From Anaerolineales bacterium (GTDB taxonomy: Bacteria; Chloroflexota; Anaerolineae; Anaerolineales; DRKV01), in the NCBI GenBank assembly GCA_020061145.1, contig JAGUYX010000113.1, positions 1 to 41,308 of the forward strand: a stretch of DNA of 41,308 nucleotides. Direction: 5' to 3'. The notes under the pieces are model-generated. The model ran no database searches and was not told the origin of the DNA. It saw only the letters and a program-made list of their open reading frames with translations. Below are positions 2,770 through 28,433 of this stretch, in pieces (positions within the stretch are counted from its first letter, which is position 1; every line of letters begins with the position of its first letter). The translations under genes and the position numbers were made by a program.

Positions 2770-3395
2770 TTTTTGTGACTGTATTTGTTTTTGGCTTGAT
2801 CGCTGGCCTTGGCATCGGAATGATGATCGGTAGGGGTGGTTCAAACGCAGATCTGGCGCAGGCAAATACTGAACTGGAGGCCCGCCTGGATACAGCCACT
2901 GAAAACTATATGATCTTGATGAGGGAGTATAACAAGCTGTTTTCTTCGAAAACCGCTTTCCTCGCTGGATCTCCTGTTCAGGTGAGCTCTGCCTCTGAGA
3001 ACCAACCAGCCGTGATCGTGACGCAAGAGCCGACAACAACCTCTGAACCACAGGTAATTGCCACGAGCACCCCAACCCCTCTACCGGTTGGAGATACCGG
3101 CAAACCGGTTGCGGATTTTGAGGCGGAATCGATCAACGGAACCGGACCCCTGGAAGGGCCCCCTCCTCAGCCTTTCCAATTTACAGACAAGTCCACCGGA
3201 GTAATCACCAGTTGGTTATGGGACTTCGGCGATGGCACGACCAGCAATGAGCAGCATCCCTTGCATACCTATGAGAAGTGCCCTGGCGATGCCGAGCTGT
3301 GCACCGTGTCTCTGACGGTCTGCGGACCAGATGGCTGCGACACCATGACCAAGGTTGATTACTTGTGGGTCTCTGAGTCCTGCACCGGGTGCTAG
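2751..3395 (+). CDS. Membrane-anchored PKD-domain protein
   Basis: N-terminal TM helix; PKD signature FTDKSTGVITSWLWDFGDGTTSNEQHPLHTY; start overlaps the upstream cytochrome gene. Confidence 0.85.
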   Translation: MRRNRVIFVTVFVFGLIAGLGIGMMIGRGGSNADLAQANTELEARLDTATENYMILMREYNKLFSSKTAFLAGSPVQVSSASENQPAVIVTQEPTTTSEPQVIATSTPTPLPVGDTGKPVADFEAESINGTGPLEGPPPQPFQFTDKSTGVITSWLWDFGDGTTSNEQHPLHTYEKCPGDAELCTVSLTVCGPDGCDTMTKVDYLWVSESCTGC

Positions 3396-3419
3396 CCGGG
3401 ACTTCCCATAAGATAACGA

Positions 3420-4595
3420 ATGGGAAAAGGTAGCATGCACTTCAAGAAACTCTTTCGTACACTCGCCGTTGCCACGGTCGTAGTTGTGTGGGGAGCCGGG
3501 TTAACCGTTTCCCGCACCGCGCTTGCCCGTGATGCAACCCAGGCAGCCAGCCCAGGGGATGAGTGCGTCACCTGCCACTCCACCCCCGGCCTGGGGATGC
3601 GTTTCACTACGGGTGAGATCGTCTCGGTCTACGTCGATCCGTGGCAGTGGGAGCAGTCCGTTCACGGTTCGACCCTACAATGCACCGCCTGTCACGCTGA
3701 CAGCGCGGTTTATCCTCACCTGGGGCGCGCAATTGCCCATCCGAGTCCCCGGGAGGTGGGGTACCTGACGCGCGGGTATGCTACCTGCGGTGAATGTCAC
3801 CAGCAACAGTATGTGGAATATCTGGGAAGCGTCCATGCGATCGCGCTCCGGGATGGCCAGGCCGAATCCGCGGTGTGCAGCGACTGCCATGGGGATCACG
3901 ACATCGAGCCGGCAGAAGCGAAACGAGATGGTTTGTCCGTCAGGACAGCTGTGATCAACTGTGGAAAATGTCACCAAGAGGAGTTCCAGCAGTATCAGAA
4001 TAGCGTGCATGGTAAAGCACTCTTGAATGGCGGTGATCCGAACGTTCCTGTCTGTGTAGACTGCCACGGTGTGCATGCCATGGGCGATCCAACGATGCCT
4101 GGATTTCGCCGTCAGTCACCCTATCTGTGCGCCTCCTGCCACGCGGATGAGGCGCTGATGAAAGAATATGGATTATCGGCCTCTGTTATGGAAACGTATG
4201 TCGCTGATTTCCATGGGACAACAATGCGGATGATTTCTTCTGATGATGCACCGATATCTGCCGGCGCTGCGCCTGGAGTAGCGATGTGTTACGACTGCCA
4301 CGGGGTCCATGAAATCCGCAGCATGGTCGATGCGCAAAACCCGGCCAGCGGTGATGGTTTGCTGGATATCTGCCAGGAGTGCCACGAGAACGCGCCGCAG
4401 GATTTCCCTGCCGCCTGGTTAGGGCATCGCAAGCCAGATTCCGACCGCTTTCCTCTTGTATTCTGGATCCAGCGCATTTACTCCATTGTAGTTGGTGGGA
4501 TGATTATCGTCTTTGTAGGCCATATCGGCCTCGACTTTGGGAAGATTATCGTTGGCAAGTTACGCGATGAGAGGAAGAGGAGGAGAGCTGAATGA
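3420..4595 (+). CDS. Multiheme c-type cytochrome (9 CxxCH motifs) with C-terminal TM helix
   Basis: CVTCH, CTACH, CGECH, CSDCH, CGKCH, CVDCH, CASCH, CYDCH, CQECH; C-terminal YSIVVGGMIIVFVGHIGLDF. Confidence 0.95.
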   Translation: MGKGSMHFKKLFRTLAVATVVVVWGAGLTVSRTALARDATQAASPGDECVTCHSTPGLGMRFTTGEIVSVYVDPWQWEQSVHGSTLQCTACHADSAVYPHLGRAIAHPSPREVGYLTRGYATCGECHQQQYVEYLGSVHAIALRDGQAESAVCSDCHGDHDIEPAEAKRDGLSVRTAVINCGKCHQEEFQQYQNSVHGKALLNGGDPNVPVCVDCHGVHAMGDPTMPGFRRQSPYLCASCHADEALMKEYGLSASVMETYVADFHGTTMRMISSDDAPISAGAAPGVAMCYDCHGVHEIRSMVDAQNPASGDGLLDICQECHENAPQDFPAAWLGHRKPDSDRFPLVFWIQRIYSIVVGGMIIVFVGHIGLDFGKIIVGKLRDERKRRRAE

Positions 4596-12016: not shown

Positions 12017-12111
12017 GGGAGTGATTGAGTCCTGGTGGGCTCCTCGGTCTTCAAAACCGCTGTGGGGAGGTGGAAACCTTCCTGGGTGGGTTCGACTCCC
12101 ATTCACTCCCG
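12017..12111 (+). tRNA. selC: tRNA-Sec (anticodon UCA at 12051-12053)
   Basis: 8-bp acceptor GGGAGTGA/TCACTCCC; anticodon loop CTTCAAA; long variable arm GTGGGGAGGTGGAAACCTTCC; T-arm GTGGG-TTCGACT-CCCAT; CCA not fully encoded. Confidence 0.93.
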
Positions 12112-12370
12112 CCTTTTACGCAGTATATGACAGGATTGCTTTGATAGAAAGGAGGTATGCCGGTGCGAAAATTAATCCTCTGCATATGATTCGATTTCAC
12201 CCAACGCAGTGACTGCGTTATTTCTGTACACAGACCGCGATGCTGCACATCCCCGAACCGGCATCCCTCCACGTAGAGAGCGTGCAACCGAAGCAGTTAC
12301 ATACTCCCTGGGGGCTGGTTCCGGCGGCTGGCAGCCGGCCCATGTCAACCAAATGGAGGGAGTATTTTTC

Positions 12371-13516
12371 ATGTCTGCACATAATCGGTTTTTTGCCTCA
12401 CGCTGGGCAATGATATTGACTGGAGGCGCAATCGGTGCCCTTGCGGCGTTGCTGGTCAAATGGGGAAATCCAGGCAATATGGGGCTCTGTATGGCCTGTT
12501 TCATCCGAGATATTTCTGGAGCCTTGGGACTGCACCGCGCTGCAAGCGTACAATATATCCGTCCTGAGGTGATCGGACTTGTTCTGGGGGCGAGTGCTGC
12601 TGCCATAGGCTTTAAAGAATTCAGAGCACGCGGTGGATCCGCCCCCCTCCTCAGGTTTCTATTTGGCAACCTGGCGATCATTGGCGCCCTGGTGTTTCTG
12701 GGTTGCCCCTGGCGGGCGTATCTGCGATTGAGCGGGGGTGATTGGAATGCCATTCCCGGCATTTTGGGATTGGCCGCCGGAGTCTTTTTAGGGGTCCTGC
12801 TCCTGAAGGCAGGTTTTAGTTTGGGGAGGAACCAGCGTGGACCCGCTCCGATTGGATTCGCTTTTCCCGCCCTGGTGATCCTCCTCCTATTCCTATTGGT
12901 CTTCGCGCCCATGTTCGGACGGGATGCCGATGGCAGACTGGTTGGTCCGATCTTCTTCTCCGAGAATGGGCCGGGTGCGCAGCATGCACCGTTGCTAATC
13001 TCACTCTTTATTGGTCTGGTGATCGGCTTCCTGGCGCAACGTAGCCGTTTCTGCACGATTGCCGGGTTGCGCGATCTGATGCTCATGGGGGATACTCACT
13101 TTGCTAGCGGCATTGTAAGCCTTGTGGGGGTCGCGTTTCTCGCCAACCTTGCCCTGGGCCAGTTCAAACCCGGCTTTGCTGATCAGCCCATTGCCCATAC
13201 CGACGCACTTTGGAATTTCGGCGGTATGGTATTGGCAGGGTTGGCATTTACCTTGGCTGGGGGCTGCCCTGGGAGGCAGCTCATTCTGGCTGGCGAAGGC
13301 GATGGAGACGCGGCCATGTTCGTCTTTGGTCTGCTGACCGGAGCAGCCATCTCCCATAACTTTAACCTGGCAAGTACGCCGGCTGGCCCGAGCCCCTACG
13401 GACCTGCGGCAGTTGTGGGCGGTCTGCTGGTTATTTTGGTTGTTGGCCTGGCGATGCGTGAGCGCTTGGTGGTATCGACGGAGAGTATGCAAGTTACGCA
13501 AGAGGTGAAAGCATGA
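12371..13516 (+). CDS. yedE: Selenium metabolism membrane protein YedE (FdhT-like)
   Basis: MSAHNRFFASRWAMILTGGAIGALAALLVKWGNPGNMGLCMACFIRDISGALGLHRAA...FLAQRSRFCTIAGLRDL...GGCPGRQLILAGEGDGDA; ATG at 12371 is preceded by GGAGGGA. Confidence 0.9.
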   Translation: MSAHNRFFASRWAMILTGGAIGALAALLVKWGNPGNMGLCMACFIRDISGALGLHRAASVQYIRPEVIGLVLGASAAAIGFKEFRARGGSAPLLRFLFGNLAIIGALVFLGCPWRAYLRLSGGDWNAIPGILGLAAGVFLGVLLLKAGFSLGRNQRGPAPIGFAFPALVILLLFLLVFAPMFGRDADGRLVGPIFFSENGPGAQHAPLLISLFIGLVIGFLAQRSRFCTIAGLRDLMLMGDTHFASGIVSLVGVAFLANLALGQFKPGFADQPIAHTDALWNFGGMVLAGLAFTLAGGCPGRQLILAGEGDGDAAMFVFGLLTGAAISHNFNLASTPAGPSPYGPAAVVGGLLVILVVGLAMRERLVVSTESMQVTQEVKA

Positions 13517-13743
13517 ACCAGACACCCGAATCACTTCTCGTAGACGCCCGGGGGCTGAGCTGCCCGCAACCGGCAATCCTCACGCGCCAGGCGATCAGCC
13601 AGGCGGCTGGTAGGGTGCTCGAGATTCTCGTGGATGCAATAGCACAGCGCGATAACGTGATCCGCGTGGCGGTGAAAGAAGGCTGGTCGGCAGTCCCAGA
13701 AGAGACAGCCGATGGTCGGATACGCATAAGATTGACGAAGTAG
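13513..13743 (+). CDS. yedF: Sulfurtransferase-like selenium metabolism protein YedF (TusA/SirA family)
   Basis: LVDARGLSCPQPAILTRQAI with CPxP motif; position next to yedE and selD. Confidence 0.85.
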   Translation: MNQTPESLLVDARGLSCPQPAILTRQAISQAAGRVLEILVDAIAQRDNVIRVAVKEGWSAVPEETADGRIRIRLTK

Positions 13744-13749
13744 GCAGAT

Positions 13750-14916
13750 TTGGATTCAAGTCTGATTTATCTGGATAACGCCGCCACCTCCTGGCCGAAA
13801 CCGCCGGAGGTTGTTCAGGCAATGGCCAGCTTCATCGCAGAGAGCGGTGGAAATCCGGGGCGTTCTGGTCACCGTCTGTCTCTGGCGGCTGGCAGAGTAG
13901 TGTACCAGGCGAGGGAAGAACTGGCCGACTTCTTCGGGTTAGATGACCCTCTCCGTTTAGTGTTCACCGCCAATGTGACCGAGGCCATCAACCTGGCGCT
14001 CTATGGGCTACTGCGCTCTGGTGATCACGTTATTGCCAGCAGTATGGAACATAACGCCGTCATGCGCCCTCTCAGGCACCTGCAGCGTGAAGGCGTACAT
14101 CTGAGCTTCGCCCCCTGCGGGATGGATGGCCATGTTTCCTTAGCGCATGTTGAAAAACTGCTCAAAACCCAAACCCGCCTGGTTGTGGTCAACCACGCTT
14201 CCAATGTAACCGGAACCATTCAGCCCATTGCAGAAATCGGCGCGCTCTGCCGAGAACACAACACTCTCTTCCTGGTTGACGCGGCTCAGACTGCGGGTGT
14301 ACTGCCGATCAACATCGAAGAGCTTCAAATCGACCTGCTCGCCTTTACCGGTCATAAGGGGTTACTGGGACCAACCGGTACTGGTGGATTGCTCCTGGGT
14401 GAGCGGGTGCCGTTCGAGGAGATGAAGCTGCTGGTGCGGGGTGGAACGGGAAGCCGGTCGGAATACGAGGAGCAGCCTGAGTTCCTGCCTGATCGCTTTG
14501 AAAGTGGCACCCCCAATTCGATCGGACTGGCCGGCCTTTTGGCAGGCCTTCAATTTATCAAGTCACACGCGCTGGATGCCTTACGCGAACAGGAAACTTC
14601 TCAGTTAGCCCGCTTGATCATAGGGCTGAGTAATCTCCCAAACGTCCGGCTGTTTGGCCCGCGCGATCCATCCCGACAGGTACCCGTGGTCTCTTTCACG
14701 CTCGATGGCATGCGGGTATCGGATATCGGTTTTCGACTGGATGAAGAATATGGCATCCTGTGCCGGCCTGGCTTGCAATGTTCCCCTGCTGCTCATCGTA
14801 CCTTAGGGACTTTCCCGCATGGAACGGTCCGGCTCTCTCCAGGTCCATTCACAAAAGATCGTGAAATTGAGAGCGTGCTCGAGGCGGTTGAGAGGTTATC
14901 GGCGGAATTACTATGA
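13750..14916 (+). CDS. Cysteine desulfurase / selenocysteine-lyase-like class V aminotransferase
   Basis: TTG start; IYLDNAATSWPKPPEVVQAM...VVNHASNVTGTIQPI...DAAQTAGVLPI...FTGHKGLLGPTGTGGLLL...CRPGLQCSPAAHRTLGT. Confidence 0.9.
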   Translation: MDSSLIYLDNAATSWPKPPEVVQAMASFIAESGGNPGRSGHRLSLAAGRVVYQAREELADFFGLDDPLRLVFTANVTEAINLALYGLLRSGDHVIASSMEHNAVMRPLRHLQREGVHLSFAPCGMDGHVSLAHVEKLLKTQTRLVVVNHASNVTGTIQPIAEIGALCREHNTLFLVDAAQTAGVLPINIEELQIDLLAFTGHKGLLGPTGTGGLLLGERVPFEEMKLLVRGGTGSRSEYEEQPEFLPDRFESGTPNSIGLAGLLAGLQFIKSHALDALREQETSQLARLIIGLSNLPNVRLFGPRDPSRQVPVVSFTLDGMRVSDIGFRLDEEYGILCRPGLQCSPAAHRTLGTFPHGTVRLSPGPFTKDREIESVLEAVERLSAELL

Positions 14917-15140
14917 GTCAGTACGGAGTTGTATTGTTCTCGGGTACCCAGGCAGCCTTACGAGCTGAAAAACTGCTTGAGAGGGTTGGGCAGGTGGTGA
15001 AGTTGATTCCCACTCCCCGGCACTTGAGCTCCGATTGCGGGGTTGCGCTTCGTTTTTCCTGGGCGGAACAGAACGAAGTGGTCAACACGTTAGATCGGGC
15101 CAGGCTCGCCTATGAGACTATCGCTATTCTTGATGGGTAG
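14913..15140 (+). CDS. DUF3343 family putative Se/S carrier-like protein
   Basis: MSQYGVVLFSGTQAALRAEKLLERVGQVVKLIPTPRHLSSDCGVALRFSW; ATGA overlap with upstream gene; Se-operon context. Confidence 0.8.
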   Translation: MSQYGVVLFSGTQAALRAEKLLERVGQVVKLIPTPRHLSSDCGVALRFSWAEQNEVVNTLDRARLAYETIAILDG

Positions 15141-15151
15141 GTGGCATCGAA

Positions 15152-16201
15152 GTGCTAAAAACAACCATTCGTCTCACCGAACTCTCCTCCTGTGCGGGTT
15201 GAGCATCTAAGCTGAGCCCAGAGGCTCTGGCGCAGGTGCTGCGCCCTTTGCGTGCCATGTTCCAGCCCCAGGATTGTCCCGATCTGATGGTCGGCATTGG
15301 TTGTCTGGATGATGCCGCCGTGTATCGCTTGGACAGTGAACGGGCCCTGATCTTCACGACAGATTTTTTCACGCCGGTGGTGGATGATCCGTATGACTAT
15401 GGAGCCATTGCCGCAGCCAATGCCCTTTCTGACGTGTACGCCATGGGCGGAGCGCCGTTGCTGGCGCTAAACCTGGCCGCGTTTCCAGCGCGCCTGCCGG
15501 CTGAGATCCTTGGGCAGGTGTTGATGGGAATGGCGGATATGGTCAAACAGGCTGGGGCTGTGGTGGCTGGAGGCCATACGATCCAGGACGAAGAGCCAAA
15601 AGTCGGCTTGTGCGTGGCTGGGATGGTCCACCCGGACAAGCTGCTCACCAAGGGAGGTGTGCAGCCTGGCGATCAGCTAGTGTTAACCAAGCCTCTTGGG
15701 ACAGGCCTTATTACCACGGCTGCCAAAATGGATCTGGCGGATCGGGAGGATGTCGATGAGGCAATCCAGTGGATGAGACGGCTTAACAGAGCTGCCGGGA
15801 AAACCGCAGCGGACCTGGACTTGCGAGGCGGTACCGATGTCACCGGATTCGGCCTGTTGGGTCATGCCTGGGAAATGGCAGAAGCGTCGCGAGTAACCCT
15901 TAAGGTTTTTTTTGAGGCAGTGCCGTTCATGAACGGTGTTGTCCGTTATGCCGACCAAGGGCTGTTCCCCGGCGGAACGGCATCGAATTATACGGCTTAT
16001 AGCAAACGGATCCATTTTGCAGAATATTTGAATGAGGATCAAAAGATGCTGCTGTTTGATGCGCAAACAAGCGGAGGACTACTCTTGGCCGTGCCACAGG
16101 AGAAGATGGGGGAGTTCTCCAATATGATGGAATTCCATGGCGAAAAGTGTTGGATCATCGGTGAGGCGGTGGGCAGGGAAGCCGGAATTCAGGTCATCTG
16201 A
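15152..16201 (+). CDS. selD: Selenide, water dikinase SelD, itself a selenoprotein (UGA at 15200-15202)
   Basis: GTG start; VLKTTIRLTELSSCAGUASKLSPEALAQVLRPLRAMFQPQDCPDLMVGIGCLDDAAVY...; U sits at the catalytic Cys/Sec position of SelD; the track ORF starts late at 15236. Confidence 0.95.
15214..15245 (+). promoter_or_regulatory. Candidate SECIS region of selD (two alternative hairpins)
   Basis: GAGCC-CAGA-GGCTC at 15214-15227 (11 nt after UGA) and GGCGCAG-GTG-CTGCGCC at 15229-15245. Confidence 0.55.
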
Positions 16202-16227
16202 CCATCAGCCTGGGAAGGAGGGTTGCC

Positions 16228-18141
16228 ATGTATGTAGTCGGTACAGCCGGTCATGTCGATCATGGAAAGTCGACGTTGGTGCGGGCATTGACTGGGATCG
16301 ACCCCGACCGTTTGAAAGAAGAAAAAGAGCGCGAGATGACGATCGATTTGGGGTTTGCCTGGCTGGAACTGCCCAGTGGTCAGGAAGTCTCGATCGTTGA
16401 CGTTCCCGGGCACGAAGACTTCATTAAAAACATGCTGGCCGGGGTAGGGGGGATCGACGCTGTACTGCTGACGGTAGCTGCGGATGAGGCGATCATGCCT
16501 CAGACGCGCGAACATGTGGCGATTCTCGATCTCCTGGAGGTCAAGGCTGGCCTGGTTGTGTTGACAAAAGCCGACATGGTGCCTGACGAGGAATGGTTGG
16601 AGTTGGTCAAAATGGATGTGGCGAGTCTGCTGGAGAAAACCTCACTGGCAGGCGCCCCGATTGTGTTGGTATCCTCCAAGACCGGGAAAGGTCTGATCGA
16701 TCTGGAAGACAACCTCGATGCCCTTCTCAAGAAAACCCCACCACGCCGAGACTTCAACAGGCCGCGCCTATCTATTGATCGAATCTTTACAAAGCCCGGA
16801 TTTGGGACTATCGTCACCGGGACGCTGATTGATGGTCGTTTTTGTGTGGGAGATGAAATCGAGATCCAGCCGAAAGGGTTGAAGGGGCGAATCCGCGGGC
16901 TTCAAACCCACAAAAACAAAGTGGAAGTGGCCACTCCTGGCAGCCGAGTCGCGATCAACCTGACCGGCGTGAATCTGGAAAATCTCAGCCGGGGAGACGT
17001 TGTCACTCATCGCGGTTGGTTGAGCGGTACGGTTTTAGTGGATGCCCGCATCCGGGTTCTGGAGGACTTTGAACTGGCGCTGAGGCATGACATGGAAATC
17101 GAGATCTTCTCCGGGGCCTCACAGGTTTTGGGTCATGCCCGGGTGCTCGGCGCGGATGAAATTCGTCCTGGAGAATTAGGCTGGGTCCAGATCCGCCTGG
17201 TTGATCCAATTGCGTTGGTCAAAGGGGATAGGCTGATCCTTCGCCAGCCCTCTCCAAGCCGGACGATCGGCGGAGGAGTAGTTATCGATCCGCATCCCTA
17301 CCGCAAGCACCGCCGTTACCACGAAGAGGTCATCCGCCATTTAGGGGCAATGGCATCGGATACGCCTGAGGAAATCTTGCTGGCGACGCTGATGAAACAG
17401 GAGCCTATCTCAGCGCGGCTGGCCGTCCAACGCAGCCAGCTTGATTTGGAAGCAGCAGGAAGTGCGTTGTCTAAGCTGCTGGCAGAAGGATTGGTCTATG
17501 TGCTAAATAGCGACACTTCCGATCCTGGCAAGCTTGTTTCTGGCTCTTCCAACCTGATTTCCGCGGAAGGTTTCAATCGATTTGTTGAGCGGATCCGACA
17601 GGTCCTTTCGGAGTATCATACTGCGTTCCCGCTCCGCCTCGGGTTGCCCAGAGAAGAGTTGAACAGCCGCCTGGGTTTGGACCGTCAATTGGTCAATACC
17701 ATCGTAGAGCGTGCCGTGAAGCTGGGCTCGATTAGGGCTGTAGGGGGAAGCCTTTCCTTACCGGGGCACAAAGTGCTATTTTCTCCTGAACAACAGAGGC
17801 AAATTAACCAGGCTTTGGAGGTTTTCCGTCAGGCGCCTTTCACCCCGCCCCCTACAAGAGAGGTAGCATCGCTGATTGGAACAGAGGTCCTCTTTGCGCT
17901 CCTTGAGCAGGGGTGCTTGACCCAGGTGAGTAAGGATGTCGTTTTCATGACTGATACCTACAACCGCATCATCGAACAGGTTGTACAACACCTGAAGGAA
18001 CAAGGTACGATCACGATAGCGGAGGCGCGCGATCTCTTCAATACCAGCCGGAAATATACCCAGGCAATCCTCGAGCACATGGACGAAAAACGGATTACCA
18101 AGCGCCTGGGTGATAACCGGATATTACGACAAATGACTTAG
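16228..18141 (+). CDS. selB: Selenocysteine-specific translation elongation factor SelB
   Basis: [51 protein letters not shown]...[14 protein letters not shown] plus C-terminal winged-helix domains. Confidence 0.96.
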
Positions 18142-18218: not shown

Positions 18219-20600
18219 TTGAGTATGAGACTACAACTGCGATCAAGACTCTTCTGGCAGGTATTTATCATCGTCCTGATCGGTTTGGGTCTGACATCGA
18301 TCGGCATGGCTGCACTCAGCCTGCAGGCAATCGATGATAATACACACCGTGCCCTGGAGGAGCGCCTGGTGTTGAGCCAGGCGATCGCGGGACGGGTGGA
18401 TGACTACCTGCATGAATCTACCCGCCACGTGGAGATCCTCATTGAAAGCGAGGGCATCGCCCAACACATGGAGGACGAAGCTCTTGCCCAGGAGTTTGTG
18501 GAAAAGGTGAAGTACCACCTGGGCAATTTTGCTTACTTCACGGTGTTGCTGGATAACTCGCGCCAGGTTGTCAGCATGGCTCCCTACAACGAAGAAGTGA
18601 TGAAAAATGATTTTACTTCAGCGAAATGCGTCGAGTTCGTCAGCGTTCACCGGACACCGGTTATCACGCGCGCCTTCGTGTTGGGAGCGCCCACCCACAC
18701 GGTCGCCCTGGTTATCCCTATCCTGGACAAGGAACAAACCCAGGTAGGTACGCTATTTACCGCCCTCAACCTGACCGACGAGGTCTTCACGCGTCTATTG
18801 AAACCCTGTTGTCCTGGGACAACCGGCCATTCGGAGATTGTCGATTCCACCGGATTGGTTCTTGCAAGTACGCAGCCTGAAAATTTATGGAAAGAAGATG
18901 GTCATGGCGAGCAATTCGACCAGTTGGTGTCTGATCGTCGATCGGTGGTGGGCACCTGTCACACTTGCCATATCGAGGATTCGCAGGTGATCGCACGTGA
19001 GGACGAGGTGATGGCTTTTGCGCCTCTAGCGTCTGCACAATGGGGTGTAGCCCTTCGGCAATCCAGCCAAGAGGCCTTTACCTTTGCGTCCATATTGAAA
19101 AAGCAACTGGCTGTGTATTTTTCCGTTGCCCTTCTGGCTGGGGTTGGAATCACATGGATGTTTACCAAAAGGATTGTGCGCCCCATCGAAAAGCTGACCT
19201 CGGCCTGCCAGGAAATTACGGAAGGGAACTTGTCAGTGGAGGTCCCGTTGGAAGGACCGGGCGAAATTGGCCGTCTGGGATCCTCGTTCGCTTTGATGCG
19301 CAACCGACTGAAAGAGTCCTTGAACCAAATTCAGAACTGGGCGGACGAGCTTGAAGACCGCATCCGACTGAGGACCACAGAGTTGGAAGAATCACAGGAA
19401 AAGCTTCAGAAGGCAAACCGGGAATTATCGGTTTTGAATACGGTTGGAGACGCATTGCGCCAGTCGCTCAACCTGACCTCGACCATGAACACGGCTCTCG
19501 AGAGGATGATCGAGTTGAGCGAAGCAGGGTTTGGTTGCATATTCCTGAAACAGCAGGAGAACCAGGAGCCGGTTATCGCTGCCCAGTCCTCACGAGATGT
19601 CGACTTTGGCATCACCAGGTTGCTTCCCGCTTTACGATCCCACGTGACGAATATTTTTTCGAAAGAACGGGCGGACGCGTTCAAGATGCCATTGCGTTCC
19701 ATCCCCTTGAACAATCATCGGGAGGTGGATTACTTCATCGCGACATTTATCCCTCTGATCGGAAAAGAAAGCATTCCTGGTGTGATGGTCCTGGTCAAGA
19801 AAAACCACTGCGGTTTTTCTATTCACGAAAAAGAACTGTACCGCTCGATTGGCATACAGATTGGGATTTCTATTGAAAATGCACTTCTTTTTCAAAGATT
19901 GCTTCAAAAGGAAGAATCGCTCAGCCAGTTGGTTCATAAGCTGATTGCAGCTCAAGAGGAAGAACGGCGCCGGATTGCCCGCGAATTGCACGACGAGACC
20001 AGCCAATCCCTAACGGCGTTAAGTGTGGGATTGAGAACGGCGATCATGGCAAAGGCAAGAACACCGGAAGAGGTCAAGAAGCGATTGGGGCCTTTGGATG
20101 GGATGGCCTCGGGTATGCTTGAGGAAATTAGTCGTATGATCCAGGATCTGCGTCCCAGTCTGCTGGACGACATGGGTTTACTGTCCGCCTTAGACTGGTA
20201 TGCAGACGTTCGCCTGCGGTCTAGAGGAATTCAGGTCAGTTGGGAGATTGTGGGCATAGAACGGCGGCTTCCCCTGGAACTGGAAACGACGATTTTCCGT
20301 CTGGGGCAAGAAGCGATCAGCAACGTTGCCAAACACGCCAAAGCCGAGAGCGTTACCATCCTTATTGAATTTCTAGACCACCACATCGTTCTTGAGATCG
20401 ATGATGATGGGAATGGGTTTGATGCAGAGCAAATACTGTCGAACAATCTATCGTCTATGGCGTATGGTCTTTTGGGGATGCGTGAGAGGGTAGACTTGTT
20501 TGGCGGTGTTCTAACAATTGATTCTAGAGTAGGAGTCGGCACCCGCGTTCGGGCTGAACTGCCGGTGATGGTTGCGCCAGTCGCGGATATAACCATATAA
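18219..20600 (+). CDS. Membrane sensor histidine kinase (NarL/HisKA_3 type) with extracytoplasmic CxxCH haem motif, HAMP and GAF
   Basis: TM1, sensor domain with GTCHTCHIEDSQ (CxxCH at 18957-18971), TM2, HAMP, EEERRRIARELHDETSQSLTALSVGLR, C-terminal ATPase DDDGNGFD...GLLGMRERV. Confidence 0.9.
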   Translation: MSMRLQLRSRLFWQVFIIVLIGLGLTSIGMAALSLQAIDDNTHRALEERLVLSQAIAGRVDDYLHESTRHVEILIESEGIAQHMEDEALAQEFVEKVKYHLGNFAYFTVLLDNSRQVVSMAPYNEEVMKNDFTSAKCVEFVSVHRTPVITRAFVLGAPTHTVALVIPILDKEQTQVGTLFTALNLTDEVFTRLLKPCCPGTTGHSEIVDSTGLVLASTQPENLWKEDGHGEQFDQLVSDRRSVVGTCHTCHIEDSQVIAREDEVMAFAPLASAQWGVALRQSSQEAFTFASILKKQLAVYFSVALLAGVGITWMFTKRIVRPIEKLTSACQEITEGNLSVEVPLEGPGEIGRLGSSFALMRNRLKESLNQIQNWADELEDRIRLRTTELEESQEKLQKANRELSVLNTVGDALRQSLNLTSTMNTALERMIELSEAGFGCIFLKQQENQEPVIAAQSSRDVDFGITRLLPALRSHVTNIFSKERADAFKMPLRSIPLNNHREVDYFIATFIPLIGKESIPGVMVLVKKNHCGFSIHEKELYRSIGIQIGISIENALLFQRLLQKEESLSQLVHKLIAAQEEERRRIARELHDETSQSLTALSVGLRTAIMAKARTPEEVKKRLGPLDGMASGMLEEISRMIQDLRPSLLDDMGLLSALDWYADVRLRSRGIQVSWEIVGIERRLPLELETTIFRLGQEAISNVAKHAKAESVTILIEFLDHHIVLEIDDDGNGFDAEQILSNNLSSMAYGLLGMRERVDLFGGVLTIDSRVGVGTRVRAELPVMVAPVADITI

Positions 20601-20609
20601 GGCGGTGCC

Positions 20610-21263
20610 ATGCAGAAAATTCGTGTATTGCTGGTTGATGACCACGCGATCTTGCGGGAAGGCCTGCAAGCCATGCTCAGCTTGTGCGAGGATATCGAAG
20701 TGATAGGCGGCGCGGCGGATGGCTCTCAGGCGTTGGAAATTCTTCAGAGGTATATCGTTGATGTGATTGTGATGGATATGGCAATGCCGGGAATGGGCGG
20801 GTTAGAAGCGACACGAAGGATCGTAAAATCATACCCGCACCTAAAGGTATTAGTTCTAAGCCAACATGATGACGAAAGATACGTACTGTCGGTTTGCCAG
20901 GAAGGAGCTTCTGGTTATGTTTTGAAGCGTTCGGTGGGGAAGGAGTTGATTTCTGCAATCCGGACGGTTTACCAGGGAGGCAGCTATTTGCCTCCCGCGA
21001 TAGCCGATAAGTTGTTGCGCGCTTTTCGCAACCCAAATCATAGTCAGACCGTGGAAGTAGAGGGCAGCCTGACCGACCGCGAACGAGAAATTCTGATCCA
21101 TGTATGTGAGGGGATGACAAGCCAGGAAATTTCAGAACTACTTAGTATCAGCAAGAAAACAGTCATGTGCCACAGGGCAAATATCTATAAAAAGCTTGGC
21201 ACGCACAGAAGGGTGGAGTTGATCAAATATGCCCATCAAGCGGGGCTGATCCAGCTCATCTAG
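20610..21263 (+). CDS. LuxR/NarL-family response regulator
   Basis: VLLVDDHAILREGLQAML...MDMAMPGMGGLEATRRI...LTDREREILIHVCEGMTSQEISELLSISKKTVMCHRANIYKKL. Confidence 0.93.
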   Translation: MQKIRVLLVDDHAILREGLQAMLSLCEDIEVIGGAADGSQALEILQRYIVDVIVMDMAMPGMGGLEATRRIVKSYPHLKVLVLSQHDDERYVLSVCQEGASGYVLKRSVGKELISAIRTVYQGGSYLPPAIADKLLRAFRNPNHSQTVEVEGSLTDREREILIHVCEGMTSQEISELLSISKKTVMCHRANIYKKLGTHRRVELIKYAHQAGLIQLI

Positions 21264-21580: not shown

Positions 21581-22261
21581 TTGAACCACTTCAACGTAAT
21601 CCAACCAGAAGTATCACAAATCCTGCCCGATTTACGTACGCTCAGTCGGGCCACCGGTCGTTTCAGAAAAGGACCGGGTTCATCCATACAATTAGCCCGA
21701 GAAACGACCCTGGTGGAGGCTTCGACATTAATCAAGCCGGTGGCAATTTGGGCGAAAATCGAGATTTCTCAGAATGATTCATCCATATTTCCTGTTTGGC
21801 TGGCAAAAAAAGCCTCCCGGGTTGAGTCGATCGCTGGCATTGTCTGCACGATAGGCGATCAACTGGAGAACATGTCTCGTAAATACTTCTCGATGGGGCA
21901 AAACACCCGTGGTTATATTTTGGACCAGGTCGGGTCCCTCGCCGTTGCGCGCCTCGCCAGCCAGGTTGCTGAACAACTGCGCCGCGAATTGAATGCTCTC
22001 TATTGGGCGCCTGGCGATGACACGACCGACGTCACGCTCTCCGCCCAGCGTTGGCTCTTCGACCTCATTCCCGCCCAGAAGATCGGCGTCCGGCTTACCG
22101 GCCAGAATGTGATGGTGCCGGTCAAGTCATTATCTTTTTTTCTGCTCATCCGGACCGGACAAGCCGGTTTGAAGTGCGCAATTCCCTGCCAGCGCTGCAT
22201 CTGGAATGGCGCGTGCGATCAACGCATGCAGAAAACTTCCTCTGGCAATTCAGCGGCATGA
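21581..22261 (+). CDS. Vitamin B12-dependent methionine synthase activation-domain-like protein
   Basis: GIVCTIGDQLENMSRKYFSMGQNTRGYILDQVGSLAVARLASQVAEQL...APGDDTTDVTLSAQRWLFDLIPAQKIGVRLTGQNVMVPVKSLSFFLLI...CQRCIWNGAC. Start codon (TTG) uncertain. Confidence 0.65.
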   Translation: MNHFNVIQPEVSQILPDLRTLSRATGRFRKGPGSSIQLARETTLVEASTLIKPVAIWAKIEISQNDSSIFPVWLAKKASRVESIAGIVCTIGDQLENMSRKYFSMGQNTRGYILDQVGSLAVARLASQVAEQLRRELNALYWAPGDDTTDVTLSAQRWLFDLIPAQKIGVRLTGQNVMVPVKSLSFFLLIRTGQAGLKCAIPCQRCIWNGACDQRMQKTSSGNSAA

Positions 22262-22297
22262 AAGAGGCGGATTGACGGCCTGAAGGTAAGGGTTCAT

Positions 22298-23599
22298 ATG
22301 GAAACCACTGGCGATCATTCTCAAGAGCAAACAGACCTGGGGGCTGATCTCTTAAAGTGGGTCGAACACGAGCGTATCGGCCAGTTGCAAACGTACAGTA
22401 GGGGCCGGATGCTCTTCTGGCAGGGTGAAACGGTAGAGTATGTTTATTTGGTAAAACAAGGTGCAGTTAAAATCTATTCAATCTCCCAGGATGGGAAAAG
22501 CTATGCTTATGGGGTCGTCGGAGCGGGAGGCATAGTCGGTTTAACCTCGTTATTACAATGCATCGCACACGAGTCTTTAGCAGAAGTCATCGAAGACACG
22601 GAAGTCATTGCCATTTCTGCGGCGGAATTTAATCAGTTGCTGTGTACAGAGCGCCAATTTTCTCTGCTTGTCTTGAAGAAATTGGCGCAAGGATTGAGCC
22701 TGCTGGCCAGTAAAGCCAGGGATGCAGGTTTGTTGGATGTGCAGCAACGCCTGAAACACCGCCTGGTTGAGCTGGCCAGGGATCATGGCAGTGCTACAGA
22801 CAAAGGAGTCAAAATCAACCTGGATCTGACCCACGAGGAAATTGCAACCCTTGTGGCTGCCAATCGAAGCACAATTACGGGCCTTTTGAACGAGCTGAAA
22901 GAGCAAGGTTTCCTCTGGAAAGAAGGCCGGCATCTGGTGATTATCCCCCCGGTTCATATAGAGATCCTCGACGAGCTTACCCGATCGGTTGTGAATGGCG
23001 AAGAGGACGAAGCCAAAAAATGGGCCAGCAAAGCCATCGATTCAGGCGTTGAGCCAACAAAAGCGCTCAACGCGTTAACCAGCGGGATGAACCTGATCGA
23101 CAGAATGTTTAACCGGAATGAGATCGACGTATCCGACGTAATTCTCTCCGCCTATGCAATGAAAAGCGCCATTCCTATCATTGAGGACAAGATTGCAAAA
23201 AGCAGGCAGAAGGTTCATTCGATCGGCAGGGTTGTCATTGGAACTGTCCATGGAGACATTCACGATATCGGTCGCACGCTGGTTGCGATGTTGCTGAGAG
23301 CCAGGGGGTTCGAGGTGATCGATCTCGGGATCAACGTGAACTGCGATGATTTTATTCAAGCTACCCTGAAATTCAAACCAGATATATTGGCGATGTCCTC
23401 CCTGATGACGACCAGTGCGCAGGAGCAGTTCAAAGTTATCCATGCATTAAGGGAGGCTGGTTTGCGAGAAGATGTCAAAGTCATCGTCGGGGGAGGCGCG
23501 ATCACGGAGAAATTGAAACAACAAATGGGGGCAGATGGATATGAGCCCACGGCGCATCGTGCCGTAGAGCTGGCCTGGAGATTAACCCACTCGTCGTAG
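22298..23599 (+). CDS. Fusion protein: Crp/Fnr-type regulator (cNMP-binding + HTH) N-terminal, methyltransferase corrinoid-binding domain C-terminal
   Basis: N-term RGRMLFWQGETVEYVYLVKQGAVKIYSISQDGKSYAYGVVGAGGIVGL; HTH LTHEEIATLVAANRSTITGLLNELKEQGFL; C-term GTVHGDIHDIGRTLVAMLLRARGFEVIDLGINV (DxHxxG) ... VKVIVGGGAIT. Confidence 0.9.
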   Translation: METTGDHSQEQTDLGADLLKWVEHERIGQLQTYSRGRMLFWQGETVEYVYLVKQGAVKIYSISQDGKSYAYGVVGAGGIVGLTSLLQCIAHESLAEVIEDTEVIAISAAEFNQLLCTERQFSLLVLKKLAQGLSLLASKARDAGLLDVQQRLKHRLVELARDHGSATDKGVKINLDLTHEEIATLVAANRSTITGLLNELKEQGFLWKEGRHLVIIPPVHIEILDELTRSVVNGEEDEAKKWASKAIDSGVEPTKALNALTSGMNLIDRMFNRNEIDVSDVILSAYAMKSAIPIIEDKIAKSRQKVHSIGRVVIGTVHGDIHDIGRTLVAMLLRARGFEVIDLGINVNCDDFIQATLKFKPDILAMSSLMTTSAQEQFKVIHALREAGLREDVKVIVGGGAITEKLKQQMGADGYEPTAHRAVELAWRLTHSS

Positions 23600-23716
23600 A
23601 AGAACGTCTCGAAATTGTTGTTTAGCCAACAGACAGGGGGAGTAATCTTTGCTATCTTTGATCCTGGAATATTCCCAATACCGATCTGGATTTCATAATG
23701 AGATATCTGTACTTCC

Positions 23717-25537
23717 ATGGCCTACATAATCGAATTTGAACCAATCGGCATTCGTCTGATTTGTGATGATCCTTTGACGATCTCTGAAGCAGCTCGCCAG
23801 GCAGGCGTAAGCATTCGTTCGGTCTGTGGCGGCAAGGCTTCCTGTGGCAAGTGTCTGGTTCGGGTCATGGAAGGGCATCTGGATCCGCCTGCCGAGGCGG
23901 AACAGAAACACCTGACTCTGGCGCAGATTTCAGCAGGCTGGCGCCTGGCGTGCCGCACGATCATCGCGGCGAACACCTGTGTTTACATCCCGGCGAATTC
24001 ATTAACGGAAAGCCAGGTTATCCAAATCGAAGGTTTGGAAACCACCGCCGTCCCCGATCCCGCCGTTCGCCTCCTGGCATTGCTTGTTGATCCTCCTTCC
24101 CTCTCCGACCAGACAGGGGACCTGGAACGGGTCGCCAATGCGCTGTGCCAGGCTCATGCTCTTGAAGGTGTCTGGGGCGGGTTGCCGGCGCTGCGCGCCT
24201 TGCGTTCTGTCTTGCGGGAAGCGGACTGGCAGATCGAGGTCGCATTGCGAGGAACAGAGATCATTGCGGCCTATCCATTGGGGCAACACAGACCGGTGGG
24301 GATGGCAGTGGACGTTGGTACAACCAAACTGGCCTGTTACCTGGTGGATCTGGAAAGCGGGCGCACGCTGGCTGCCAAAGGGGTTATGAATCCCCAGATC
24401 GCCTTTGGGGAGGATGTCATGTCCCGTCTGGAAACCGTTCTCGTGGAGCCGGAGAACGCCGATCGGCTCCAGGCTGAAGTCGTGTCGTCAATCAATGAGG
24501 TGGCGGAAGAACTCTGCGCGGCGCAAAGGCTCGCTCCAGATCATATCCTGGATTACTGTTTGGTTGGAAATACGGCCATGCACCATCTGCTGGCAAAGTT
24601 ACCTGCGCGGCCGCTGGCCGTCTCGCCATTCGTCCCCGCGCTCAGTGATGTGCTGTATATCGAGGCGGATCGATTGGGTTTGAACGCTGCACCCGGCGCA
24701 CGTGCATACCTGCCTGCCCCGCTGGCCGGCTTTGTCGGTTCCGATCACCTGGCATTTCTACTGGCCGCCGGTTTCGATGAAGGAGACCGGATTCGGCTCG
24801 GTATTGATATCGGGACGAACACCGAAATCGCTCTCCAGGTCGGGAGCAGAATCATATCCTGTTCAACCGCTTCGGGTCCCGCCTTCGAAGGAGCCCACAT
24901 CCACCACGGCATGCGCGCCGCTCCCGGCGCGATCGAACGCGTGAAGATCGCAGAAGATGGCGAGATTCAGTGTGACGTCATTGGTGGAGTCCCGGCAATA
25001 GGCATCTGTGGCTCTGGTATCCTCGACGCCCTGGCTGAAATGTATCGAGCCAGGATCATCAACGAACGCGGGCGGTTCCAGCTTAATGCGCCTGGCGTGG
25101 AAAGGGCCAACGATGATTCACTGATCTTCTACCTGTCAAAAGGTGTGAATGGCTACAGGGATGTCATGCTCTCCCAACACGATGTTGACCAGGTGATGCT
25201 GGCCAAGGGCGCCATCCGGGCGGGTATCGAGATTCTGCTCAATCAAGCGGGGGTCGCCCCGGCCGATATCGAGGAAATCGTGATAGCCGGAGCCTTTGGG
25301 ACCTATCTGGATCCCTGTAATGCGGTACGCATCGGGCTGATTCCAGGCGTGCCGGTGGAACGAATCCGTGCGGTAGGGAATGCAGCCGGGGCCGGAGCAC
25401 GCCTTTTGCTCTCTTCCCTGGAATATCGCCGCAGGGCGCAGTCACTGGCAAAACGGATCGAGTACGTGGAACTCACCATCGTGCCCGGCTTTAATAAATT
25501 TTTCGCTAAGGGTGTGCGTTTTCCGACCGCAGCTTAA
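23717..25537 (+). CDS. Reductive activator of corrinoid proteins (RACo-like; 2Fe-2S ferredoxin + ASKHA domain, DUF4445 type)
   Basis: SEAARQAGVSIRSVCGGKASCGKCLVRV; GMAVDVGTTKLACYLVDLESG; RLGIDIGTNTEIALQVGSRIISCSTASGPAFEGAHIHHGMRA. Confidence 0.9.
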   Translation: MAYIIEFEPIGIRLICDDPLTISEAARQAGVSIRSVCGGKASCGKCLVRVMEGHLDPPAEAEQKHLTLAQISAGWRLACRTIIAANTCVYIPANSLTESQVIQIEGLETTAVPDPAVRLLALLVDPPSLSDQTGDLERVANALCQAHALEGVWGGLPALRALRSVLREADWQIEVALRGTEIIAAYPLGQHRPVGMAVDVGTTKLACYLVDLESGRTLAAKGVMNPQIAFGEDVMSRLETVLVEPENADRLQAEVVSSINEVAEELCAAQRLAPDHILDYCLVGNTAMHHLLAKLPARPLAVSPFVPALSDVLYIEADRLGLNAAPGARAYLPAPLAGFVGSDHLAFLLAAGFDEGDRIRLGIDIGTNTEIALQVGSRIISCSTASGPAFEGAHIHHGMRAAPGAIERVKIAEDGEIQCDVIGGVPAIGICGSGILDALAEMYRARIINERGRFQLNAPGVERANDDSLIFYLSKGVNGYRDVMLSQHDVDQVMLAKGAIRAGIEILLNQAGVAPADIEEIVIAGAFGTYLDPCNAVRIGLIPGVPVERIRAVGNAAGAGARLLLSSLEYRRRAQSLAKRIEYVELTIVPGFNKFFAKGVRFPTAA

Positions 25538-25617
25538 GCATTGGATCACTTGCTAAAAAGATTGATCACACCAGCTACAAGGAATCAGGAAAGCATCTTT
25601 CCAAACGGAGGCAAACG

Positions 25618-26262
25618 ATGTCAGAAGCAATTTTCGACGCCATCAGCAAAGCCGTTACCGAAGGCGAGGAGGTCGAGGCTGACCGTCTCGTGGAACAGGC
25701 ACTCGAGGCTGGCCTGGCGCCCCTCGATATACTCCAAAAAGGAGTGGTGCACGGCATCACCCGGGCAGGAGAATTATGGAAAGCCAATGAGTATTTTCTT
25801 CCAGATGTTATCCTGGCCGCGGATGCCTTCAAGACAGCCATGCAACCCCTGGAACCCCGCCTGAAAGAGGGGACCGATGGGCGAAGAGGAGGAAAGTATG
25901 TAATCGGCGTCGTGGAGGGGGATATGCACGATTTGGGCAAGAGTCTGGTAGGTGCCATGCTCACTTCTGCCGGTTTTGAAGTGATCGACCTTGGCATTGA
26001 CGTCCCTGCCAGTCGTTTCATCGATGCCGTTAAAGAGCACCAGCCGGTTATTGTCGGCATGGGCGCTTATATGACCACCACCATGCTGCAGATGAAGACC
26101 ATCATCTCCGAACTGGAAAAGCAGGGATTACGCAGAGGTTTGAAAATCATGGTTGGCGGCGTCCCCACCAGCCAGGAATTTGCCGACGAAGTCGGGGCAG
26201 ACGCCTGGGGCAAAGATGCCCTGGATAGCATGCAAAAAGCGCTTAAACTGATTGGAGCATGA
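25618..26262 (+). CDS. Methyltransferase cognate corrinoid protein
   Basis: GVVEGDMHDLGKSLVGAMLTSAGFEVIDLGIDVPASRFIDAVKEHQPVIVGMGAYMTTTMLQMKTIISEL...MVGGVPTSQEFADEVGADAW. Confidence 0.93.
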   Translation: MSEAIFDAISKAVTEGEEVEADRLVEQALEAGLAPLDILQKGVVHGITRAGELWKANEYFLPDVILAADAFKTAMQPLEPRLKEGTDGRRGGKYVIGVVEGDMHDLGKSLVGAMLTSAGFEVIDLGIDVPASRFIDAVKEHQPVIVGMGAYMTTTMLQMKTIISELEKQGLRRGLKIMVGGVPTSQEFADEVGADAWGKDALDSMQKALKLIGA

Positions 26263-26265
26263 ACA

Positions 26266-27576
26266 ATGGCTAATCCAACTTTAGAACTGGTTCATGGTTT
26301 GCTTTATGGCAATGGTTTCCGCATTGGCAAGCTTAGTTCCACCGGGCGGGTGTTTGCCACCATACTCGGCAGTCACGGGGACACCATTCCCTTCATGGGT
26401 CCCCAGATTCACGACCACGCGATGACGGTTGCCAGAGTCCCGGCGCGCAAGTATTACTTCGATGCCCGGTTGTTGGTTGACGTGCAGCTGGCTGTAGAAC
26501 GCTGGTATGGCTTTGACACCTATACCATCATCCCTGACGCCTATAACTTTGAAGTCGAAGCTCTGGGCGCCAAAATGATCTACAGCGACGACGCCATGCC
26601 GACCGTCGATACCAATGTGCCGCTGATTAAAGATCGTGCGGACCTGGAAAAAATCGGTACTCTAGACCCATCGAGAGGACGGATTCCGATGGGCGTGGAA
26701 CTGGCCCGTTTGGTCAGCGAAAAGGCCTCCGGTCCATTTGCGATGGGCTTCTTCTGTTCGCCCTTCAGCCTGATTTGCCAGGCGATGGGGTATCCTAAAG
26801 CAGTCCGCGCGCTGAAGCGCGATCGGGCACTTGCACAGGAGTTATTCGACTTTGCCGAAAACCAGGCGATCTTCCCTTACCTGAAAGCGCAATCGGAACA
26901 GCCTGGGGTGAAGCAATCGGCCGGAGCGGATGCCTGGGCTGCATTTCCAAATCTGACACCAGAATTAGTTCAAGAATGGGTGACCCCTTCGGCAAAACGC
27001 CTGGCTGAGCGGGGCAAGCAAGAGCTGAAAATGACGGTCATGGCGGGCCTGGCTGCGGCGGATTATTGTGAAGAAGATCCGGCCAAGTTTGATAAGGAAA
27101 TCATGTTCAAGTGCTGGTCTGTGGCCCGCAATTCCTTTGTGATGGACGTGGCTTTGTCTGCAATGGGCCGCACTCAGGATTGGGACATGCGCTGGCTGCA
27201 AGAGTTTGCTGTACAGCATAGCAAGCTGGGTCGCAAGCTGCCCATTTACGCCTCTCTGAATGGACGCTTTATGCGAGATAGCTCGCCTCAACAAATCGTA
27301 GAAAAAATCAAGGAGTGGATTGATATCATGGGGCGAGATGGGCGCCTGTTGTTCTTCATCGCCAATGTTCCGGCAGATACGCCGCCATTGAATGTGCATA
27401 CCGCCGTCCAGTCCGTCCACACGCTGGGCAGGTACCCGATCGCGAAAGACCTGGCATCGATCAGGAGCGAGCCGCCAGGTTTTCAACCCTTTGACCAATG
27501 GTTGAAGGACCAGCCGGAAGCGGATACCATCTTCAAAGCGCGCGAATGGCAGCCTGAGAAGAAAGTGTTTGCATGA
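26266..27576 (+). CDS. Uroporphyrinogen decarboxylase-family (MtaA/MtbA-like) methyltransferase
   Basis: URO-D-like length and organisation; YFDARLLVDVQLAVERWYGFDTYTIIPDAYNFEVEALGAKMIYSDDAMPTVDTNVPLI; operon with corrinoid protein. Confidence 0.8.
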   Translation: MANPTLELVHGLLYGNGFRIGKLSSTGRVFATILGSHGDTIPFMGPQIHDHAMTVARVPARKYYFDARLLVDVQLAVERWYGFDTYTIIPDAYNFEVEALGAKMIYSDDAMPTVDTNVPLIKDRADLEKIGTLDPSRGRIPMGVELARLVSEKASGPFAMGFFCSPFSLICQAMGYPKAVRALKRDRALAQELFDFAENQAIFPYLKAQSEQPGVKQSAGADAWAAFPNLTPELVQEWVTPSAKRLAERGKQELKMTVMAGLAAADYCEEDPAKFDKEIMFKCWSVARNSFVMDVALSAMGRTQDWDMRWLQEFAVQHSKLGRKLPIYASLNGRFMRDSSPQQIVEKIKEWIDIMGRDGRLLFFIANVPADTPPLNVHTAVQSVHTLGRYPIAKDLASIRSEPPGFQPFDQWLKDQPEADTIFKAREWQPEKKVFA

Positions 27577-28433
27577 CGACCAGCTTGAAAGGAACCGGGG
27601 CTCCAATCGAGATTGATCCGGGCGGTCCTATCCGGATCATCGGAGAGCGGATCAACCCCAGCGGAAGGAGCAAGCTCCGACAGGCGTTATTGGACGAGAA
27701 CTGGGATTACATAGCGGCAGAAGCCCGGAAACAGGTCGAGTCTGGAGCCGATATTATCGACGTAAACGTCGGAGGAAAGGGTGTCGATGAGGTTGTAGCG
27801 CTGCCGCAAGCAGTGCGGATTATCTCTGAAGCGGTGGATGTCCCGCTGGCGATCGATACGCGCATCCCGGCTGCATTGGAGGCAGCCCTCGCAGTTTGCC
27901 CCGGCCGCCCGCTGGTCAACTCGATAGGGGGTGAAAAGAAGATATTGGCCGAGAATCTGCCCATTGTTGCGGATCACAGGCTGCCGGTGATCGTTCTCTG
28001 TATGGGTCAGGAAGGGATCCCGAAGGAAGCGGAAGGCCGGCTGATGGTTGCCGGGCAGATCCTGGAAACGGCGGTTCGGGCGGGAATCCGGGAAGAGGAC
28101 GTCGTCTTCGACCCGCTTGTGCTCACGGTCGGGGCTGACGACCAGGCTGCCCGCGTTGCGCTGGAGACCGTAAAACGCTTACGGAAGGAATTTCCCCGGA
28201 ACAACATCACAGGGGGAACCAGCAACGTCAGTTTTGGCATGCCGGATCGCCCTGTGATTAACGCCAGCTTTCTGAGCGCTGCAACGGTTCTAGGGTTGAA
28301 TTTGCCCATCACAGACCCGACCAACGCGCATTTGCGAACAACATTACTGATCGCAGATATTTTCCTCGGGCATGACCGGTACACCAGACGCTTTATGCAA
28401 TACCTTCGCCGGGAGGCTCATACCGAGCCCTGA
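27573..28433 (+). CDS. Methyltetrahydrofolate:corrinoid methyltransferase-like (pterin-binding domain)
   Basis: IRIIGERINPSGRSKLRQALLDENWDYIAAEARKQVESGADIIDVNVGGKGVDEV...PLAIDTRIPAALEAAL...LVNSIGGEKK...GGTSNVSFGMPDRPVINASFL. Confidence 0.9.
   Translation: MTTSLKGTGAPIEIDPGGPIRIIGERINPSGRSKLRQALLDENWDYIAAEARKQVESGADIIDVNVGGKGVDEVVALPQAVRIISEAVDVPLAIDTRIPAALEAALAVCPGRPLVNSIGGEKKILAENLPIVADHRLPVIVLCMGQEGIPKEAEGRLMVAGQILETAVRAGIREEDVVFDPLVLTVGADDQAARVALETVKRLRKEFPRNNITGGTSNVSFGMPDRPVINASFLSAATVLGLNLPITDPTNAHLRTTLLIADIFLGHDRYTRRFMQYLRREAHTEP

Follow-up and report, generated by a model that had tools for sequence, protein, structure and literature searches.

A Crp-type regulator fused to a corrinoid domain, and its predicted operator, at methyltransferase genes of Anaerolineales

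A single open reading frame of an Anaerolineales contig encodes a Crp-type DNA-binding regulator joined to a corrinoid module of the methyltransferase type. The frame runs without interruption from an ATG start at position 22298 to position 23599 of the forward strand (433 amino acids) of the analysed stretch of 41,308 nucleotides, here called the window. The existence of the fused gene is confirmed; it is not an accident of assembly because 14 further fusions are found in independent assemblies. The protein is probably a one-component activator that senses the state of the corrinoid it carries and switches on the corrinoid methyltransferase operon downstream. Taken as a whole, the initial annotation of this DNA is partly supported.

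The fused protein and its relatives

The N-terminal half contains a cyclic-nucleotide-binding (CNB) fold (cNMP_binding, PF00027; residues 31-115, positions 22388-22642; Pfam 2.4e-17), a long C-helix (residues 119-145, 22652-22732), which in the secondary structure predicted by AlphaFold2 takes the position of the Crp dimerisation helix, and a Crp-type winged helix-turn-helix (HTH_Crp_2, PF13545; residues 150-216, 22745-22945; 1.4e-11). The C-terminal half consists of a four-helix cap (B12-binding_2; residues 224-295, 22967-23182; 3.3e-13), which carries the regulator-specific residues D268 and D277, and a Rossmann domain (B12-binding; residues 310-422, 23225-23563; 7e-25) with the motif D320-x-H322-x2-G325-x41-S367-x-L369-x28-GG. 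These Pfam matches all lie above the curated cut-offs. The NCBIfam matches of the second half are to the MtgC/TIGR02370 corrinoid proteins, the top PDB match of the fusion is the cobalamin-binding (corrinoid) protein 1y80, and the first half matches structures of the Crp family. Pfam, NCBIfam and PDB thus agree with the initial annotation of the frame as an uninterrupted fusion of a Crp/Fnr regulator with a methyltransferase-type corrinoid module. In the AlphaFold2 model (mean pLDDT 82.8) the wing of the HTH enters the first cap helix almost without a linker. A Foldseek search with the model retrieved CRP and NtcA for one half and MttC for the other, the top match being the MttB-MttC complex 7xcn; MttC is the closest solved fold of the corrinoid half.

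The host, a 3.15-Mb metagenome-assembled genome (MAG), contains one copy of the fusion. The 14 further fusions, 13 of them complete, come from the sampled Chloroflexota and from one Bacillota MAG. Full-length relatives turned up in 5 further genomes among 400 sampled from the order, in 4 among 396 from the class and in 1 among 400 from the phylum; the total search covered samples of about 1,750 genomes, many of which are MAGs. The 14 Crp halves are too diverse to serve as one search pattern, and the scan of named genomes reached near relatives only. The family is real, though rare and patchily distributed. Searches of viral and phage collections found no fusion, and the plasmid search gave no record in which one place covered 80% of the query. 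Two frames that resembled fusions by their length (G053 C4 and G1104 C106) were rejected as ordinary corrinoid proteins in long frames. The Bacillota fusion (L060, JAAZIN010000062.1), found in one of 349 genomes sampled in that phylum, is close to the subtype of G180 C30, G334 and G836 C59; its gene ends at the contig edge, and the copy may reflect horizontal transfer or a binning error. Counts over the 14 complete fusions given below comprise the window protein and 13 others and leave out this contig-cut copy.

Separate genes for the two halves in relatives, which according to the initial annotation would speak against it, were not encountered: in the samples searched, the close relatives of the Crp half are all fused, and Crp-only proteins appear at 21-30% identity. 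The Crp halves of the 15 fusions form one clade (support 100/100). The corrinoid halves cluster with 99/93 support in the free tree, with three stand-alone proteins inside the cluster, two of which are encoded beside a fusion. In the AU test a clade of fusion corrinoid halves only was not rejected, the constrained tree being 2.9 log units better. The corrinoid halves are consistent with a single origin, and a single fusion event would be the simplest reading of these trees.

The Crp half has kept the fold of its superfamily and has lost the residues that contact cAMP. The core residues of the HTH, among them R190 and T192, are invariant in the 14 complete fusions. Alignment with E. coli CRP shows that the cAMP-contacting residues E72, R82, R123 and T127 are not matched (the window protein has L82, E92 and others) and that these positions are without conservation across the 14 fusions. 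The cNMP-binding fold named in the initial annotation therefore stands as a fold according to Pfam, but not as a cAMP site. As the cAMP residues are missing from the CNB pocket, the corrinoid domain is the most likely entry point for the signal. The four conserved cysteines of an FNR-type Fe-S cluster were sought as well; the Crp halves of the 14 fusions contain 0-4 cysteines, none in an invariant column. Gly81 of the CNB half is invariant in the 14 fusions. H91 (22568-22570) is near-invariant (13/14) and lies where CRP has its phosphate-binding cassette. The CNB fold, the Crp-type HTH and the palindrome at a class II position described below are all found, and by fold, HTH and predicted operator the fusion is assigned to the CRP/FNR superfamily, outside its cAMP and FNR subfamilies.

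Operator, promoter and operon

A 16-bp palindrome in the CRP register, TGTYGY-N4-VCRACA, is located just 3' of the fusion gene in all 14 complete loci. In the window the predicted operator is TGTTGTTTAGCCAACA at 23616-23631 (forward strand; centre 23623.5). The palindrome starts 4-292 bp (median 32) past the fusion stop codon in 13 loci and overlaps the stop in one. Its consensus is T G T Y G Y C Y A G V C R A C A, with positions 2, 3, 5, 12, 14, 15 and 16 identical in 14/14. If up to one mismatch is allowed, 230 kb contain two other occurrences; one is a second candidate site in L045 (7215), which precedes a TctC gene belonging to the same cluster. The strict pattern has one match in the 3.15-Mb host genome, at 23616-23631, and averages about 0.29 matches in each of 120 genomes of the same order used for comparison. 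No site scoring near the fusion-linked palindromes was found in 22 loci of stand-alone corrinoid proteins. Within the window alone the loose pattern is not significant (3 matches against 2.98 expected), and the weight of the palindrome derives from its conserved position across the 14 loci.

A -10-like hexamer starts 20-22 nt past the palindrome in every one of the 14 loci, and its mean score was reached by none of 5000 shuffles. The hexamers include TATAAT (G225), TATTAT (G180) and TACAAT (G836); in some loci the match is loose, as in the window (TATCTT) and in G196 (AAGAAT). In the window an extended -10 element, TGC-TATCTT, is predicted at 23650-23658 of the forward strand, with a transcription start near 23665. 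This spacing places the centre of the palindrome at about -41.5, the geometry of a class II activator. In CRP, R180 contacts the G of TGTGA and E181 the G at site position 4. R190, the counterpart of R180, is invariant in the fusions, as is G at site position 2; the counterpart of E181 is S, T or C at residue 191, and G at site position 4 has given way to Y. Both the operator and the activation geometry are well supported as predictions from sequence. They lend support to the proposal of the initial annotation that the fusion regulates the adjacent methyltransferase operon, but they relocate its predicted site: the binding regions suggested earlier, 22200-22300 upstream of the fusion gene and 25537-25618, the latter around the gap 25538-25617, contain no operator match, nor do the regions upstream of other fusion genes, and 22200-22300 lies mostly inside a conserved open reading frame (21581-22261). 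The candidate is 23616-23631.

Two unlinked palindromes were also observed in genomes that contain a fusion. One, L092:73-88 (G328 C66), is followed by TATAAT at 21 nt and precedes a corrinoid-UROD gene pair that is 67-71% identical to the genes of the window. The other, L093:7944-7959 (G480 C16), is perfectly palindromic (TGTCGTCTAGACGACA) and has TACAAT at a spacing of 21 nt; it is followed by genes for TctC, MttB, a 2-hydroxyacid dehydrogenase, DctP, DctM and RACo, which are likely a distant member of the regulon.

The predicted first target in the window encodes a corrinoid reductive activase of the RACo type (23717-25537, 606 amino acids; Pfam Fer2, RACo_linker, Raco_middle and RACo_C_ter; AcsV-like). 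On the same strand it is followed by genes for a stand-alone corrinoid protein (25618-26262, 214 amino acids) and a URO-D/MtaA-CmuA-like methyltransferase (26266-27576, 436 amino acids), both identified by Pfam and NCBIfam, and for a pterin-binding methyl-H4folate:corrinoid methyltransferase (27573-28433, 286 amino acids; PRK07535, above cut-off). Assignment of the 26266-27576 product to TIGR01463 was rejected (53 bits against a cut-off of 235). The conserved frame upstream of the fusion gene (21581-22261, forward strand) weakly matches the activation domain of MetH (PF02965, with an E-value of 2.3e-5 that falls slightly short of the cut-off), and orthologues of it immediately precede the fusion in G328 (49%) and G836 (44%, with a 4-nt ATGA overlap). 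The product of this frame is perhaps a SAM-dependent corrinoid reactivator.

Across the loci examined, the fusions head or adjoin corrinoid methyltransferase genes. Their neighbours encode methyltransferases of the URO-D or MttB type, stand-alone corrinoid proteins, RACo and methyl-H4folate methyltransferases; most loci have a separate corrinoid carrier in the same operon, and some contain DUF1638 or transporter genes. DUF1638 proteins occur in or beside fusion-headed methyltransferase operons at L038:11016-11690 and L040:6172-6855. The host and 6 of 10 other fusion genomes encode CODH/ACS (PF03598), so that in these genomes methyl groups are probably channelled into the Wood-Ljungdahl pathway.

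A histidine kinase (HAMP, GAF, HisKA_3) and a LuxR-type response regulator (18219-21263) adjoin the operon in the window; beside the fusion genes of relatives the pair is not conserved, the one exception being a distant pair in L052. The two-component genes and the methyltransferase operon are immediately preceded by a selenocysteine cassette (12017-18141) with tRNA-Sec (12017-12113) and genes for a protein of a sulphur-transport family (12209-13516), a class V aminotransferase (13750-14916), a SelD-like AIRS protein (15236-16201) and SelB (16228-18141). Two proteins resembling multihaem c-type cytochromes are encoded at 1018-4595.

Signal input through the corrinoid domain

The DxHxxG motif (D320, H322, G325), in which the initial annotation had recognised the cobalt ligand, is invariant in the 14 complete fusions, as are S367 and GG398-399. 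The x41-SxL-x28 spacing is kept; the L of SxL varies in two fusions (G779 and G999). The cap, in contrast, differs from that of methyl carriers. Position 268 is D or E in all 14 fusions and Gly in all 39 stand-alone corrinoid proteins compared; position 277 holds an aromatic residue in 38 of the 39 carriers, whereas the fusions have a polar residue, Ala or Leu there. The two positions were chosen by ranking as the most divergent columns, so that the comparison is descriptive rather than a pre-set test. The fusion scores 173.8 with TIGR02370 and 177.2 with MtgC, under the curated cut-offs of 215.3 and 370, respectively. The cap differences suggest that the domain keeps its corrinoid but has acquired a new task, and the change from G to D/E at position 268 suggests a sensor rather than a carrier. 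Together with the non-aromatic residue 277 it could mean that the domain no longer takes methyl groups, which would favour sensing of occupancy or redox state.

In the mechanism proposed, a Crp-type dimer would bind the TGTYGY-N4-VCRACA palindrome centred at -41.5 and activate the downstream operon, in the window the genes for RACo, the corrinoid protein, the URO-D-type methyltransferase and the methyl-H4folate methyltransferase. The signal would be received by the C-terminal domain, which appears to derive from a methyltransferase corrinoid protein, is fused directly to the DNA-binding wing and would hold a base-off, His-ligated corrinoid. The state of the upper ligand, methyl-Co(III) versus Co(II)/Co(I), would be set by the substrate methyltransferase and RACo and would alter DNA binding or activation such that the operon is expressed while the methyl donor is in use. 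Computation supports the fusion, its single origin, the corrinoid-ligand and HTH residues, the geometry of operator and promoter and the operon content as predicted here; from these we infer that the fusion binds a corrinoid and the palindrome and that methylation or redox state is the signal. Corrinoid binding and the sensing of methylation or redox state, both suggested in the initial annotation, are plausible. Methylation or redox state is preferred to simple occupancy as the signal, since the fusions go with methyltransferase operons for several substrate types together with RACo, a preference that sequence by itself cannot settle. In its most specific form, which is put forward tentatively and with less than even confidence, the signal is a methyl group on the regulator's own cobalt, added by the substrate methyltransferase and reset by RACo or demethylation, and passed via the Crp module to class II activation; the fusions would then be the first such class of transcription factors.

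The fully kept base-off ligand motif, combined with the altered carrier residues of the cap, would also suit a sensor of cofactor availability that is active with any corrinoid and switches the operon on only when B12 is present, methylation being irrelevant. No riboswitch was found in the window, so that another B12 sensor would be useful. Sensing of availability is nevertheless rather unlikely, as the fusions associate with several kinds of methyltransferase operon, RACo and transporters rather than with genes of B12 uptake or synthesis, and the domain derives from a methyl-carrier protein and not from a B12-uptake protein.

It is distinctly less probable that the corrinoid-like domain is a decoy caught by the methyltransferase or RACo, the status of these enzymes controlling the activator. 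The overall fold of a carrier that docks to MttB is kept, as the Foldseek match to the MttB-MttC complex indicates, and the fusion is encoded beside a methyltransferase and RACo. A pure decoy would not need a cobalt-ligand motif that is invariant in 14/14, however, and the corrinoid domain of the window fusion matches the carrier encoded in its operon at only 34% identity, against 43-64% for the domains of most other fusions.

Still more doubtful is a bifunctional protein whose corrinoid domain goes on carrying methyl groups while its Crp half controls the operon through another ligand in the CNB pocket. The invariant Gly81 and the near-invariant His91 hint that the CNB half has retained some function. 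In G999 no separate corrinoid protein was found in the 9 kb after the fusion, and the domain might therefore still be a carrier there. At most loci, however, the same operon has a separate carrier, and every fusion departs from the carriers at cap positions that are nearly constant among these.

A CarH-like light sensor with adenosylcobalamin would likewise combine a DNA-binding with a B12-binding domain, and the fusion has a weak match to the CarH HMM (3.4e-6). This reading was rejected on motif grounds and has very little to recommend it: W-x9-EH, the helical-cap motif of CarH/LitR, is absent in 14/14, CarH is a MerR-type repressor whereas the fusion is Crp-type with an activator geometry, and the operon context is anaerobic methyl metabolism without pigment genes. 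In the linked loci the palindrome lies 3' of the fusion stop codon, but a role for it as a terminator of this gene, or as an RNA structure belonging to it, can practically be dismissed, given its short arms with no T-run behind them, the -10-like hexamer at fixed spacing in 14/14 and the unlinked copy in G480 with no preceding fusion gene.

Relation to known regulators

The regulation of corrinoid methyltransferase systems was called largely unexplored in a 2026 paper (PMC13222342). For the switching of such systems the family offers a regulator, a precise predicted operator and a promoter geometry, which brings the idea within reach of work with a single protein, a single DNA fragment and several corrinoids. 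Direct reading of the methylation or redox state of cobalt, if it occurs, would be a non-photochemical, organometallic principle of B12 signalling in gene control. The predicted operator also provides a handle on regulons for methyl compounds in uncultured Anaerolineae.

The full-text papers searched contain no description of a Crp-corrinoid regulator, which is no proof of novelty. In the P2TF collection, proteobacterial transcription factors with B12 domains are nearly all of the MerR type (PMC3532121). The mlp gene clusters (PMC10418091) were considered as the same system, since they share genes for a corrinoid protein, a reductive activase and an MtaA-like protein; the text contains no match to Crp, and as far as the comparison went the two are not the same. 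In purple bacteria the B12-binding protein AerR modulates the transcription factor CrtJ/PpsR (PMC9144470). AerR and CrtJ/PpsR, however, are separate proteins that act on pigment genes, with a DNA-binding domain unrelated to that of the fusion.

With the CRP/FNR superfamily the fusion has the CNB fold and the Crp HTH in common. The CRP site, TGTGA-N6-TCACA, equals the fusion palindrome in its 16-bp length and register. Closest in function among the CRP/FNR activators is CprK/RdhK of organohalide respirers, with which the class II position is shared; the centre of the CprK dehalobox likewise lies 41.5 bp upstream of the start (PMC7062800). The signal of CprK is a small organohalide, read in the CNB pocket, whereas the fusion has lost the cAMP residues and adds a whole C-terminal corrinoid module.

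CarH/LitR resembles the fusion as a transcription factor with a covalently attached B12 domain composed of a helical cap and a Rossmann fold with DxHxxG. It differs in its MerR HTH, as the initial annotation had correctly pointed out, in its action as a repressor and in its use of AdoCbl and light; the fusion has a Crp HTH, with the geometry of an activator and without W-x9-EH (14/14). The corrinoid half itself is most like MtgC, MttC, MtbC and MtaC (TIGR02370), with which it shares B12-binding_2 plus B12-binding and DxHxxG-x41-SxL-x28-GG. Unlike these carriers the fusion has a Crp part, its cap has Gly268 and the aromatic residue 277 replaced, and it scores below the curated cut-offs.

Ada becomes an activator once a methyl group has been transferred to it, by way of an irreversible methyl-Cys and in the service of DNA repair, whereas the methyl-cobalt proposed for the fusion would be reversible. 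The likeness of the fusion to the Ada response (PMC4437013) is conceptual.
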